Assembly: GCA_947166515.1 (NCBI GenBank)
Contig: CAMVEM010000008.1
Coordinates: forward strand, 1 to 34,436
Reading direction: 5' to 3'
DNA: 34,436 bases
Origin: an uncultured Clostridia bacterium
GTDB lineage: Bacteria; Bacillota; Clostridia; Oscillospirales; Ruminococcaceae
The number at the start of each line of letters is the position of its first letter. Within the stretch, counting starts at the first letter, position 1. The position numbers and the translations under genes are program-made. Shown here piece after piece: positions 1 to 5,966 of the stretch. The notes beneath the pieces were generated by a model. The model saw only the letters and a program-made list of their open reading frames with translations. It did no database searches and was not told the DNA's origin.

Positions 1-290
1 TTCTCAACGCTTACGACTGGGATTTCTGCCTTGTCCAGTACAACTATTTCGACGAGTTCACACAGGCAGGGAGAGAAGGCATCAAGGCAGCCAGCGAAAA
101 GGGACTTTCCATATTCATCATGGAACCGTTAAGAGGCGGCAAGTTAGTCGATCTCCTGCCTAAAAAGGCTAAGCGCGAGATAGCAGCTGACCCTCACGGA
201 TAAACACCTGCAGAGAGGTCGTTCAGTGTGCTTTGGGAGCAGCCTGAGATCACATGCGTATTCTCCGGCATTAACTCTATTGCCCCGAAG
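1..290 (+). pseudogene. Aldo/keto reductase C-terminal fragment (5' end off window), in-frame TAA at 201-203 and truncated 3' end
   Basis: Frame 3 reads LNAYDWDFCLVQYNYFDEFTQAGREGIKAASEKGLSIFIMEPLRGGKLVDLLPKKAKREIAADPHG*TPAERSFSVLWEQPEITCVFSGINSI. AKR-type sequence continues in the same frame after the stop. Confidence 0.75.
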
Positions 291-3200
291 TTATCTTCCG
301 GAGTGAATTCCATGACTTCATCATCAATTTTTTTTGCCTCAGTCTTGACCTCGGTCTCAGGCTTGATCTCAGTCTCAGTCTCAGCCTTGACCACGACCTC
401 GTTTCTGGCTGCAGGTCTGTTTCTCAGCAGATAACGCGCGAGCTTTTCCTCAAGAGCGTCTGTCTCGATAGGCTTGGAAAGATAATCGTCAAAGCCCGCA
501 CTGAGATACTTCTCTTTAGCGCCGTTTACAGCATTCGCGGTAAGTGCTACAACGACTGTATCCTCGGAGACAAGAGATTCGTCTTTAAGCCGCTTAAGCG
601 TCTCAATACCGTCCATCTTCGGCATCATGTGATCCAGGAAGACTATATCATAATGCTTTTTGCGCATCATTTCTATGGTCTTCTCACCCGAAGCCGCAAG
701 ATCAGGCGATACACCGAAGAGCTTAAGCAGGTTCTTCGCTACTTTAAGGTTCATCTCATTATCGTCGGTAACAAGCACTTCTGCATCCGGGAAGACGGGT
801 CTCTCACGCACTTTTCCTACTGCAACTGCTCCGCGTCTTTCGCGCACATTTCCTATGGATTTGCTGTCGGCAATGCCCTGGACTATCTCGAACGAGAAAG
901 TGGAGCCTACGCCATAGACGCTCTCGACCTTAAGCTTGCTGTTCATGAGTTCGAGAAGCTTTGTGACTATTGCCATGCCGAGACCGGTACCCTCGATGTT
1001 GCGGTTTCGTGTCTCATCAAGGCGCGAGAACGACTCGAACAGCTTATCCATATCCTCCTCGCGTATGCCTATACCGGTATCCTTTACTGAAACCAGAAGT
1101 TTAAGATCCTTTTCGCTTCTTTCGACACAGGATATAGTGAGCAGGACGGAACCTTTTTCGGTATATTTTACGGCATTTGTCAGCAGGTTCATAATGACCT
1201 GCGTCAGACGGACATCATCACCGATAAGCTTGCAGGGAAGGTTTTCGTCTATGTTCTCATTGAACTCCAATCCTTTTTCTTTTGCGCGTGACGAAACGGA
1301 GTTCAGAAGATTGTTGATAACGGAAATGGAGTCATATTCCGCAGTGACGAGCTCCATTTTTCCGTCCTCGATCTTTGAGAAGTCGAGAATGCTGTTTATA
1401 AGCGACAGAAGAGTTTTACCCGCTGTCTGTATATTGCTTGAATATTCCAGGATGTTCCGATCGTGTGATTCGTTCAGTATCATCTCATTCATGCCGAGTA
1501 CGGCATTAATGGGCGTACGTATCTCATGCGACATCTGCGCTAAGAATTTTCCCTTCGCGGCACCCGCTGCAGTTGCGGATTCCGCCGCTTCCTTCATACG
1601 TCGGTTCACACCTTCCTGCCAGCGGATAAGCTTTGTGAGCAGCCTGTAAACAATTATTATACAAAGAAGCACGCTCACCAGGCAGATCATTCCCACAATG
1701 AATCCTCTGCCATAGACTACCCAGATATCCGTCGCCTTATATATGACAAAGTTTGATTTATCGCTGCGCTTGGCGGTGAATATCCTTACCGAACCGTCAT
1801 AATCCTGATATACCATTGTGCTCTGGCCGTCAGGATTCAGCTCGCTGCATCTGAGTTCGGAAACATTTACCTTGTTGCTCTCCGACATCTGATATGTACC
1901 GTACGGGTGATTGATTATATTTCCGCTCGCATCGGTAAGAAAAGCGTAGCCTTTCTCTGAATAGCTTGTGCTGAGAATATCTGTCAGCTTATCCATGTAG
2001 AAATCTATACCGAGATTACCTAAGAATTCGCCTGTCGCCGAGTCATTTACCTGCTCGGAAATAGTCACACAGTAAAAGCCTGTCTGCTCGTCGTAATAAG
2101 GTGCTGATATGCTCCAGCCGTCTTCAGTCGCAAGAGTATCCTTATACCACTGGCGCTCCTCAACACGCCAGCCGTCCTCAGGCTTCCAGCCGTTGTTCAT
2201 ATAGACCGTAGGCGTCAGATCAGGGTTCGCCATATAAAGCACCGATATCTCAGGGTATCTTGACGCTATTTTATCGAGGAATTGGATCGTCCTGTCATAA
2301 TCATTGAGCATATCGGAATTTGTGGCGATGATGCCCGCAAGCATATCGAGTATGCTCTTCTGTTTGTTGACCCACTCCGACAGCTGATTTTCATAACTGC
2401 TTACATCATTGGCCATTTCGACCCTTGCAAGGCTTCTGCTCAGAAGCATGGTCGTGGTTATCGTGATCCCCAGAACAATCAGAAGAAGAGTGAGTATGAT
2501 ATTTCTGAAACGCTTGCTTATCCTGAAAGTATAGCCTTTTTTGACGTTGCGCTTCTTTTCCTCTTTCTTTGCATCGTTCTTGACTATGTTCGAATACGAA
2601 AGTATCTGCTGTATCTGGTACGAAAGCTGCTCGACCGAATCATGTATGACGCTGAATCGTTCGTCCGCAGTATCGTTGTCGGGATAATTTCTTGAATCCG
2701 ACCTGCTGAGTATCTTTCTGAGAGGCGTTTCAAGCTCTCCCTTGATACCTGCAAGAAACTCGTCTTTTGATCTGAGCGCATCTTCCGCCTTGCGTCTGTT
2801 GCGCGATGCAGCGACATAGAGAACTATTATCACAGCGGTCAGCGCAAGTGTAAGCACAAGCGTTATTGCAAGCTGTATATATGAATTGCGGTAAAGCTCC
2901 CAATCGCTCTGGCTTACAATGAGATACCAGCCTGCGGATGAACCTGCTGCGAACAGATTCTCATAAAACAAGCCGGATTTTATACGATGCGTCACGACTT
3001 CGTCGCTCGTCTTGGCGAGATAAAAGACTGCCGAATATTCGGGGAGCTTTGAGTTGAGAAGATCGCCGATATATGATTCTTCGGTACACCCTGCGATTAT
3101 TCCGTCCTCGGTGACTATAACAGCATTATGCAGACCGCGTTCCGTCATTTTCGCAACGTGAGACTGTATGCTGTCCATGGTATAATCGACGCTCAGGACT

Positions 3201-3691
3201 GTATCTCCGTCATCAAGCATGACCGAAACGGTGTAGCACATATTTCCGGTCACAACGTCAACATAAGGCGGCGTGATGTAAACCTGACCTTTGTTTTTGG
3301 CGGCACCTTTATACCAGTCTCTGCTGACAGGATTGAAATTTTCGGGGTTTGCGAGGCCCGGCAGTATGCTCCAGTCTTTTCCGGCGATATAGATGTTAAA
3401 AGCGCCGACATTTTCTTCATCCAGCGACGCTATCTTGTCATAGATAAGCGCAGACAGTTTTTCTTTATCGCTGATATAAGGTTGAAGCGAGACTGCAGTC
3501 CTAAAAGTGAAGTTCTCCGCTTCGTTTATTGTGCTCTCAAGTTCACCGCTTATACTTTCGAGAGAGTATCTTCCCGACTCCATGGTCTGTTCCGAAGTCA
3601 TATGGAAAACAAGCGTAAGCTCCATTGCGATTACGGCGATAAGCATGACCGCTATAATTATGATCGCGGCGAAATTACCGCTCTTCTTCAT
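194..3691 (-). CDS. Hybrid sensor histidine kinase: Cache / degenerate DHp / TM-Cache / HisKA / HATPase_c / REC
   Basis: 1165 aa ORF. Two TM-flanked extracellular modules, H-box FLAQMSHEIRTPINAVLGMNE, N-box LTNAVKYT, G-boxes DTGIGI and GTGLGMAI, REC with VTDDNEMN, FLDHMMPKMDG and ALTA. Confidence 0.93.
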   Translation of the reverse strand: MKKSGNFAAIIIIAVMLIAVIAMELTLVFHMTSEQTMESGRYSLESISGELESTINEAENFTFRTAVSLQPYISDKEKLSALIYDKIASLDEENVGAFNIYIAGKDWSILPGLANPENFNPVSRDWYKGAAKNKGQVYITPPYVDVVTGNMCYTVSVMLDDGDTVLSVDYTMDSIQSHVAKMTERGLHNAVIVTEDGIIAGCTEESYIGDLLNSKLPEYSAVFYLAKTSDEVVTHRIKSGLFYENLFAAGSSAGWYLIVSQSDWELYRNSYIQLAITLVLTLALTAVIIVLYVAASRNRRKAEDALRSKDEFLAGIKGELETPLRKILSRSDSRNYPDNDTADERFSVIHDSVEQLSYQIQQILSYSNIVKNDAKKEEKKRNVKKGYTFRISKRFRNIILTLLLIVLGITITTTMLLSRSLARVEMANDVSSYENQLSEWVNKQKSILDMLAGIIATNSDMLNDYDRTIQFLDKIASRYPEISVLYMANPDLTPTVYMNNGWKPEDGWRVEERQWYKDTLATEDGWSISAPYYDEQTGFYCVTISEQVNDSATGEFLGNLGIDFYMDKLTDILSTSYSEKGYAFLTDASGNIINHPYGTYQMSESNKVNVSELRCSELNPDGQSTMVYQDYDGSVRIFTAKRSDKSNFVIYKATDIWVVYGRGFIVGMICLVSVLLCIIIVYRLLTKLIRWQEGVNRRMKEAAESATAAGAAKGKFLAQMSHEIRTPINAVLGMNEMILNESHDRNILEYSSNIQTAGKTLLSLINSILDFSKIEDGKMELVTAEYDSISVINNLLNSVSSRAKEKGLEFNENIDENLPCKLIGDDVRLTQVIMNLLTNAVKYTEKGSVLLTISCVERSEKDLKLLVSVKDTGIGIREEDMDKLFESFSRLDETRNRNIEGTGLGMAIVTKLLELMNSKLKVESVYGVGSTFSFEIVQGIADSKSIGNVRERRGAVAVGKVRERPVFPDAEVLVTDDNEMNLKVAKNLLKLFGVSPDLAASGEKTIEMMRKKHYDIVFLDHMMPKMDGIETLKRLKDESLVSEDTVVVALTANAVNGAKEKYLSAGFDDYLSKPIETDALEEKLARYLLRNRPAARNEVVVKAETETEIKPETEVKTEAKKIDDEVMEFTPEDNFGAIELMPENTHVISGCSQSTLNDLSAGVYP

Positions 3692-3956
3692 ATTTTCAGC
3701 CCTTTCCTGTACCTGTCATTTCATGTGCGCTCATTGATACGCATCATTCCTGCATCGTACGATAAGACAGCCTCTTTTATGTCTTTGATGTCACTATTTG
3801 TCCTTGCTGCCCGCGACAGTACTGTTCTGACGAGTCCCGGATCAGGTACGGGCAGAATGCTTTATGCAAAGCAAAAGAATTATACCAAGAAACACATATT
3901 CAGATTTTCTGTCATCTGCCTGATCCAGTTTCGTTCTCTCTTTGTCAGAATAATCT

Positions 3957-4291
3957 TTGCATTTTAATGCAATGCTGTTTGTCAAAAAAGTAGTAACTTG
4001 TTATTTAATTTGCGAAGCGAGTCGCTTTTGCACTTACTTTTCGCTGATGCTTATATGCGCGCATCCATGCGCTCTTCTGGCATCAGCTACCGCAGCATCA
4101 TGCTGCGTCGCGTCCGAAAAGCAGCGGGGTTTGGGTCGCTGCATGATGCAGCGAATGCCCGCCAAAAAGCGCACACAAGGTGCGCTAATAAAGCGGGCAA
4201 AGCAGAGCCCCGATCTCAAGCGTAGCGTTTCTCTGAAATTCTCAAGCGCAAGCGACTTCTTTGACAGTCTGCATTGCATTTTAATGCAATG
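3957..4291. repeat. Hairpin-rich element with imperfect terminal inverted repeats (MITE-like or structured RNA candidate)
   Basis: Left end GCATTTTAATGCAATGCTGTTTGTCAAAAAAGT. Right end, reverse complemented, CATTGCATTAAAATGCAATGCAGACTGTCAAAGAAGT. Several perfect hairpins lie in between. Confidence 0.6.
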
Positions 4292-4292
4292 T

Positions 4293-5966
4293 TTATTTTG
4301 CGTTTTCCTCATCATGGTGTCTTATCTGAGCACGCTTTATCTTACCGCCGAGAGTTTTAGGAAGCTCGTCAACATATTCGATAACACGCGGGTACTTGTA
4401 AGGAGCGGTCTCACGCTTAACGTGATCCTGCAGCTCCTTAGTAAGCTCAGGTGAAGGAGTGTAGCCCTTTGCAAGAACTACAGTAGCCTTTACGATCTGA
4501 CCTCTTATAGGATCCGGAGCGCCGGTTATAGCGGATTCAACCACAGCAGGGTGAGTGAGCAGTGCGCTTTCTACCTCGAATGGCCCGATGCGGTATCCGG
4601 AGCATTTGATAACATCGTCGTTCCTGCCCACAAACCAGTAATATCCATGGGAATCGCGCCATGCAACGTCGCCGGTATCATAGTTTGCGCCGCCAAGTAC
4701 AGCCTTTGTCAGATCAGGATCCTTGTAATATCCGCAGAAAAGTCCGGTAGGATGATGTTTGTCTATACCGCAGGCCATGATGCTTCCTTCTTCACCGTCT
4801 TCGGTTTCCGTTCCGTCCGGACGGAGAAGGTGGATATTATAAAGCGGAGAAGGCTTTCCGGTCGAACCCGGTTTAGGATCTATCCACGGGAAGTTGGCTA
4901 TTAGTACAGAGCCTTCCGTCTGGCCGAAACCTTCACGCATTTTTTTGCCTGTAAGTTCATAGATACGGTTGAACACCTCAGGGTTAAGCGGTTCGCCGGC
5001 ATTGCAGAAGTTCTCGATAGTTGAGAGGTCGTACTGAGTCATATCCTCCTGCAGCATGAAACGGTACATAGTAGGCGGAGCGCAGAACGTAGTGAGCTTG
5101 TACTTGCTTATGACAGAGAGCATATCTTTTGCGTCGAAGCGTCCGGTAAAGTCGTAAACAAATTGTACAGCACCGCATATCCACTGACCGTAGATCTTGC
5201 CCCAGCCGAATTTAGCCCAGCCTGAATCCGAAATAGACATGTGGAGCTTGTTTTCCTGCACCTGATGCCAGTATTTTGCGGTAACGATATGACCGAGAGG
5301 GTATGTGAAGTTATGGCAGACCATTTTAGGCATTCCGGTAGAGCCGGAAGTGAAATATATCAGCATTATATCGGTAGCTTTCGTAGCCTGGTCGTCAGCA
5401 GGACGCTCAAAAGTATCAGGATACTTTGCGATCTCGTCCTCGAAGAAATCCCAGCCGTCACGGGGCTCGGCAACAGCAATTTTCTTGCGTAAAGTTTTTA
5501 TCTCGGGAGCGGCGCCGTCGATCTGAGTGCGGATATATTCGTCATCACAGGCAATAATAGCAGATATTCCGGCCATATTTCCGCGGTAGGCGATATCATG
5601 TGTAGTAAAGAGAAGATTACCCGGGATAAGGATGATTCCAAGCTTATGCAGAGCCGTGGCTATTACCCAGTATTCCCAGCGGCGGCGGAGAATAAGAAGA
5701 ACGACATCTCCTTTTTTTAGTCCGAGACTGCGAAAATAGTGGCAGGTCTGATTCGAGAGCTTAGATATATCGGTGAAAGTGAAAGTACGTTCCTGTTTGT
5801 CGTGGCTCAGCCAGAGCATAGCCTTTTTTTCAGGCTCCTGCTTAGCCCATTCGTCAACGATGTCCCATCCGAAATTGAAATTATCGGGGATGTTTACACG
5901 GTAGTTTTCTACGAAATCCTCGTAAGAATCGAATTCTATACGGGGAAGATAGCGGTCTAAAAGCAT
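4293..5966 (-). CDS. AMP-forming acyl-CoA synthetase (medium-chain/acetyl-CoA synthetase-like)
   Basis: 557 aa. Adenylate-forming motifs YFTSGSTGMPK, REGFGQTEG, YDTGDVAW, GRNDDVIKCSGYRIGPFEVE and C-terminal KTLGGKIKR. Confidence 0.95.
   Translation of the reverse strand: MLLDRYLPRIEFDSYEDFVENYRVNIPDNFNFGWDIVDEWAKQEPEKKAMLWLSHDKQERTFTFTDISKLSNQTCHYFRSLGLKKGDVVLLILRRRWEYWVIATALHKLGIILIPGNLLFTTHDIAYRGNMAGISAIIACDDEYIRTQIDGAAPEIKTLRKKIAVAEPRDGWDFFEDEIAKYPDTFERPADDQATKATDIMLIYFTSGSTGMPKMVCHNFTYPLGHIVTAKYWHQVQENKLHMSISDSGWAKFGWGKIYGQWICGAVQFVYDFTGRFDAKDMLSVISKYKLTTFCAPPTMYRFMLQEDMTQYDLSTIENFCNAGEPLNPEVFNRIYELTGKKMREGFGQTEGSVLIANFPWIDPKPGSTGKPSPLYNIHLLRPDGTETEDGEEGSIMACGIDKHHPTGLFCGYYKDPDLTKAVLGGANYDTGDVAWRDSHGYYWFVGRNDDVIKCSGYRIGPFEVESALLTHPAVVESAITGAPDPIRGQIVKATVVLAKGYTPSPELTKELQDHVKRETAPYKYPRVIEYVDELPKTLGGKIKRAQIRHHDEENAK

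Follow-up and report, generated by a model that had tools for sequence, protein, structure and literature searches.

A MITE of the IS1182 type in an uncultured Clostridia bacterium and its relatives, with apparent duplication of whole target hairpins

A short repetitive element found between two genes of an uncultured Clostridia bacterium is best read as a MITE of the IS1182 type, in which a transposase with a preference for hairpin sites would insert the element so that the whole target stem-loop is copied to each side, a reading to which we give a probability of about 0.85. The window (the whole stretch of DNA analysed, 34,436 nucleotides) comes from a genome of 3.1 Mb in 271 contigs that is 83% complete, and the related genomes compared with it are Oscillospiraceae metagenome assemblies. 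Read on the minus strand, the element has an acyl-CoA synthetase gene (4293-5966) upstream and a hybrid histidine kinase gene (194-3691) on its other side. It is short, multi-copy and without a transposase gene (forms of 159-161 and 297 bp), carries terminal inverted repeats (CTGTTTGTCAAAAAAGT / CAGACTGTCAAAGAAGT), and is associated with target-site duplications of 18-39 bp at hairpins and of 7-10 bp at flat sites. Full-length IS1182 elements share both its ends and the hairpin duplication, which makes it a MITE of an IS1182 subgroup.

Comparison from copy to copy sets the mobile unit at positions 3975-4271 (297 bp), with conserved termini CTGTTTGTCAAAAAAGT on the left and ACTTCTTTGACAGTCTG on the right; the ends (CWGNYTGTCRAA...) are constant across the other copies, in the same genome as well as in related species (Table 1). 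The preliminary description had outlined an element of ~335 bp with terminal inverted repeats. Inverted ends do exist, but the outline was drawn too wide and took in the target hairpin. The outer AATGCAATG palindromes are ruled out as element ends, being site-specific and missing from other copies, and are therefore a target duplication rather than terminal inverted repeats. The two palindromes are identical in 19 of 20 bases, and the right one (4272-4291) directly adjoins the stop codon of the synthetase gene, where the element had been said to abut; the interior hairpins named earlier were likewise all found in the sequence. The AT-rich hairpin of the window copy folds only marginally better than its shuffles (p=0.055). 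Nine relatives with a synthetase gene 85-91% identical to that of the window have no element behind this gene, and a clean empty site is not identifiable in them since the flank past the stop codon is not conserved.

Table 1. Coordinates of the element, its parts and its surroundings in the window
Feature	Position	Strand	Basis
MITE, 297-bp form, long variant of the 159-161 bp element	3975..4271	+	comparison with other copies
Left terminal inverted repeat CTGTTTGTCAAAAAAGT	3975..3991	+	copy comparison
Right terminal inverted repeat, reverse complement CAGACTGTCAAAGAAGT	4255..4271	-	copy comparison
First core hairpin (TACTTTTCG...CGAAAAGCAGC)	4035..4125	+	comparison with 161-bp form; stem covariation
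Extra module (~66 bp) in first core hairpin, with hairpins GCTGATGC/GCATCAGC and GCAGCATcATGCTGC	roughly 4044-4109	+	comparison with 161-bp form
Second core hairpin (GGGG...GCAGAGCCCC)	4126..4211	+	comparison with 161-bp form; stem covariation
Extra module (~66 bp) in second core hairpin, with hairpins TCGCTGCAtgaTGCAGCGA and GCCCGC..GCGGGC	roughly 4136-4201	+	comparison with 161-bp form
Target duplication, left copy CTTTGCATTTTAATGCAATG, palindromic	3955..3974		direct repeat; missing from other copies
Target duplication, right copy CATTGCATTTTAATGCAATG, palindromic, beside acyl-CoA synthetase stop codon	4272..4291		direct repeat
Acyl-CoA synthetase gene, context only, not part of the element	4293..5966	-	PF00501 and PF13193

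A BLAST search of the same genome, the check proposed in the preliminary description, returned 57 matches to the region, and the same ends with target duplications recur both there and in relatives. The copies are mosaics that number in the dozens, and their number in this genome, taken from scored candidates, is a lower bound. The basic form has 159-161 bp and two core hairpins (L030, L032, L035, L040, L077 and L078), and a 161-bp form with both ends is present in another species as well (G069). The window copy and locus L002 represent the 297-bp form, in which extra hairpin modules sit inside both core hairpins and thus account for the 'nested hairpins' noticed at first reading. Among individual copies, one (L075, 366-552) has a 26-bp tandem duplication close to its right end, and another (L178, G069:C132, 1-236) carries a tandem array with the unit GGGGCTC.GCCCC..GGCAGGGCT.TGCCCTGCAC. 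At three loci (L030, L169 and L314) the hairpin on one side differs from that on the other, a sign that copies at different sites may have recombined.

Target duplications of 18-39 bp (median 26 bp) flank 26 insertions in thirteen genomes, nine of the genus, that of the window included, and four of the wider family. Nearly all of the duplicated sequences (24/26) fold better than their dinucleotide shuffles at p<=0.01. The automatic search had found 27 duplications, from which L295 was dropped as a coding-type repeat with 45/58 identity. In the genome of the window, L002 has the 24-bp hairpin AAATCTCCCCCGAAGGGGAGATAT outside both ends, and hairpins of 31 bp (30/31 identical) and 24 bp (22/24) are duplicated at L040 and L077. 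Elements with related ends and hairpin duplication occur in other species of the genus (G025, G024, G069, G015, G032, G034, G036 and G056), with a 174-bp element in seven insertions in G025. By a measure that asks for at least 8 pairs and a loop of 3-10 nt, and that replaced one with unlimited loops as too permissive, a hairpin abuts 20/35 element ends in the genome of the window, where the rate at random positions is 6.6% (p=8e-15). In relatives it abuts 61/79 ends, against a random rate of 6.3% (p=2e-53). No abutting hairpin of at least 7 pairs is present at 13/35 ends in the genome of the window. At least five A were counted in the eight bases outside the hairpin at 46/86 hairpin-bearing ends (a raw count, without a control rate), as expected if these hairpins are terminators. 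At targets other than hairpins, the duplication is 7-10 bp long (L032 TATTATTCTT, L162 AATTATATCT, L160 ATGTCTT), as it is for the IS in L303 (TTGAGCTA).

Autonomous elements with ends of the MITE type were found in related genomes. Four are complete and come from other genera of the family (L305, L307, L312 and L317), with termini of the same kind as the MITE ends and perfect hairpin duplications of 31, 39, 29 and 20 bp, respectively; L305 has 1510 bp and encodes 478 aa. The transposases of L305 and L317 score 396 and 423 bits against NCBIfam NF033551 (IS1182 family transposase, cut-off 270), and the transposases of the autonomous partners match the domains PF13751 and PF05598. Within the genus, IS left ends are present in G030 and G036 (CAGACTGTCGAAAAAGCC or CAACCTGTCGAAAAAGCC); a hairpin and promoter-like sequence come next, before the contig breaks off. 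The right ends sit on separate contigs, and one of these, C26 of G036, opens with the C-terminal part of a PF13751 transposase. Matching hairpins outside a left and a right end give four pairs in G030 (L202/L338, L209/L334, L212/L336 and L215/L339) and one in G036 (L203/L333), and their identity would pair these IS ends across contigs. With its many copies, common ends, target duplications and transposase-bearing relatives with the same ends, the element bears out the earlier suggestion of a non-autonomous transposable element. An intact partner transposase is not assembled in the genome of the window (83% complete, 271 contigs) or in its closest relatives; a collapsed, unassembled partner repeat in this genome is possible, because many contigs end inside such elements. 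A candidate partner at L382 (G053:C93, about 1200-1672), where an IS1182-like C-terminal transposase fragment (VDRIEVERKFSLAKRKFGLGLIRTKLENTTKSSILLAIIAMNVDRL) runs straight into the 3' part of a MITE of that species, was rejected as too broken.

In a phylogenetic tree, a fully supported branch separates the duplicating transposases from those of IS1182 elements with GGGGCTGTAAAA ends. The latter (the L086 group, from Clostridia and in part from the same genus) share the NF033551 transposase family with the MITE partner, but differ in their ends and in their branch of the tree, and none of 49 copies has a duplication of at least 8 bp; the differing ends and the lack of duplication rule the group out as the direct partner. 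Its flanks are strongly complementary in 4/49 copies, compared with about 1.2 expected from shuffled pairs. On this count a clear case for hairpin replacement of the IS1272 kind was dropped, and only the absence of duplication is claimed. Just inside the left ends of the G030 and G036 elements (L188 and L198), as in L086 (226-325), a strong hairpin stands ahead of the transposase promoter, and possibly acts as a terminator, keeping host transcription from running on into the transposase gene.

Whole-hairpin duplication is best explained by strand transfer to a hairpin in its extruded form, at both of its 5' feet. The transposase would prefer hairpin-forming sites, often Rho-independent terminators right behind a stop codon, and would see the target hairpin in its folded form (as a cruciform or single-stranded). 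The 3' ends of the element would be joined to the 5' foot of each stem, and gap repair would then copy the whole stem-loop, leaving a complete hairpin on each side of the element, while at flat sites the same elements would leave an ordinary duplication of 7-10 bp. Such flat-site duplications fit an enzyme with an ordinary stagger, to which the hairpin adds its own length. The window copy would be mobilised in trans, the transposase would recognise the extruded hairpin, and a terminator kept at each side would be of benefit. The more general proposition is that this IS1182 clade and its MITEs recognise folded hairpins and transfer strands at both stem feet, so that the hairpin and not the enzyme sets the duplication length, and that they spread through terminators, leaving a working one on each side, and fall back on a 7-10 bp stagger in flat DNA; we lean towards it with only modest confidence.

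Two other readings of the flanking hairpins were weighed. Hairpins that travel with the element would make it a mobile terminator cassette with the outer palindromes as its true ends, as might be suggested by the window copy, in which the palindromes run on into the ends as one unbroken inverted repeat (46 nt, 80%); since the hairpin differs from site to site while the inner ends are constant, and copies at non-hairpin sites lack the palindrome altogether, this deserves next to no credence. Insertion could also be random, with short duplications and survival only behind terminators, and the enzyme would then have no part in the targeting of hairpins. Insertions between genes are generally tolerated, and copies with ordinary 7-10 bp duplications do exist at non-hairpin sites, both of which speak for random insertion. 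Yet the duplication length tracks the hairpin (18-39 bp) with borders no more than a few bases away from the stem feet, a cut stagger cannot be set by survival bias, and IS1272 of the same family targets stem-loops too (PMC5678879, PMC4923244), so that we regard survival bias as quite improbable and enzyme targeting of hairpins as the better account.

The interior raises two further alternatives. Predicted folding of the region is much stronger than that of shuffled sequence, on one strand as on the other (z = -6.3 and -6.4). Across 10 copies from two species, 100% of the cells in the core stems are paired, with compensatory change in 7 pairs; the covariation score was not equalled by any shuffle, and slid controls all failed. 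The element is neither single-copy nor short of covariation or of end conservation in relatives, the combination that had been named as grounds for abandoning the idea. A structured non-coding RNA or attenuator-like regulatory unit, repetitive by chance, might be read from the strong folding and the compensatory changes in two core stems. The structures are palindromes, however, and covariation therefore leaves DNA and RNA function undecided; selection acting on DNA palindromes, or their repeated origin, accounts for the changes just as well. Moreover, Rfam covariance models have no match up to E=1 in positions 3700-4500, the two strands fold equally well, copies differ by gained or missing hairpin modules, and inverted ends with target duplications mark transposition. 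The RNA reading, also raised in the preliminary description, is thus highly improbable as the identity of the element, which is a transposable element and not a known RNA family. More room is left for the view that the core of the interior is a REP/BIME-like repeat in its own right, spread by another mechanism and captured between IS1182 ends. In about a dozen core copies in the genome of the window the left flank is unrelated or degenerate and a terminal repeat cannot be recognised; the core (TGCGAAGCGAGTCGC...GGGGCAGAGCCCC) is seen in this state at L014, L016, L017, L018, L019, L024, L034, L037, L081 and L363. The core may be older or independent, but the both-ended 161-bp form is common to another species (G069), several core copies show partly degenerate ends, and many of them can be understood as old copies that have decayed, which makes independent spread and capture doubtful.

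Among the closest known systems are two from staphylococci. IS1272, of the IS1182 family, replaces its target stem-loop (PMC5678879), and TnSha1 enters terminator hairpins, which are partly deleted as a result (Furi et al. 2016, PMC4923244). Like the elements described here, both rely on an IS1182-family DDE transposase and pick stem-loops, including transcription terminators, without sequence specificity (PMC5678879, PMC4923244), so that this precedent and the present hairpin flanks both indicate that some IS1182 members choose palindromic targets. By contrast, the IS1272 stem-loop is replaced or partly deleted without duplication, while here the whole stem-loop is duplicated and present on both sides, and most copies are short and gene-less. 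Duplication of the whole stem-loop was drawn by Wan et al. 2017 (PMC5678879) as a hypothetical alternative 'pathway b' for IS1272. With bacterial MITEs such as the pneumococcal RUP, BOX and SPRITE (PMC10969869), the elements share small size, lack of genes, multiple copies, inverted ends, a hairpin-rich interior, intergenic location, size variants and truncated copies; IS1182 is absent from the text of that review. REP/BIME repeats are similar mosaics of palindromic modules between genes, but the present elements have defined terminal inverted repeats, target duplications and a relative with a DDE transposase. A literature search for hairpin-duplicating MITEs yielded no description. We know of no MITE with a whole terminator hairpin as its target duplication. 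Isolated cases of hairpin duplication may already be on record, since the direct repeats listed for IS1182 in ISfinder reach about 60 bp.

What is new here are MITEs of a hairpin-duplicating IS1182 clade, and their unusual part is the whole-hairpin target duplication. If the proposed mechanism is true, the stagger of a DDE transposase can be defined by the secondary structure of its target, and these insertions would be natural examples of the proposed duplication branch beside the hairpin replacement of IS1272, making two outcomes comparable within one transposase family. The elements are numerous in the Oscillospiraceae genomes compared here, and probably also break metagenome assemblies, because many contigs end within them. 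Their position suggests a simple reason for harmless multiplication, namely landing behind genes with a terminator left to each neighbour.
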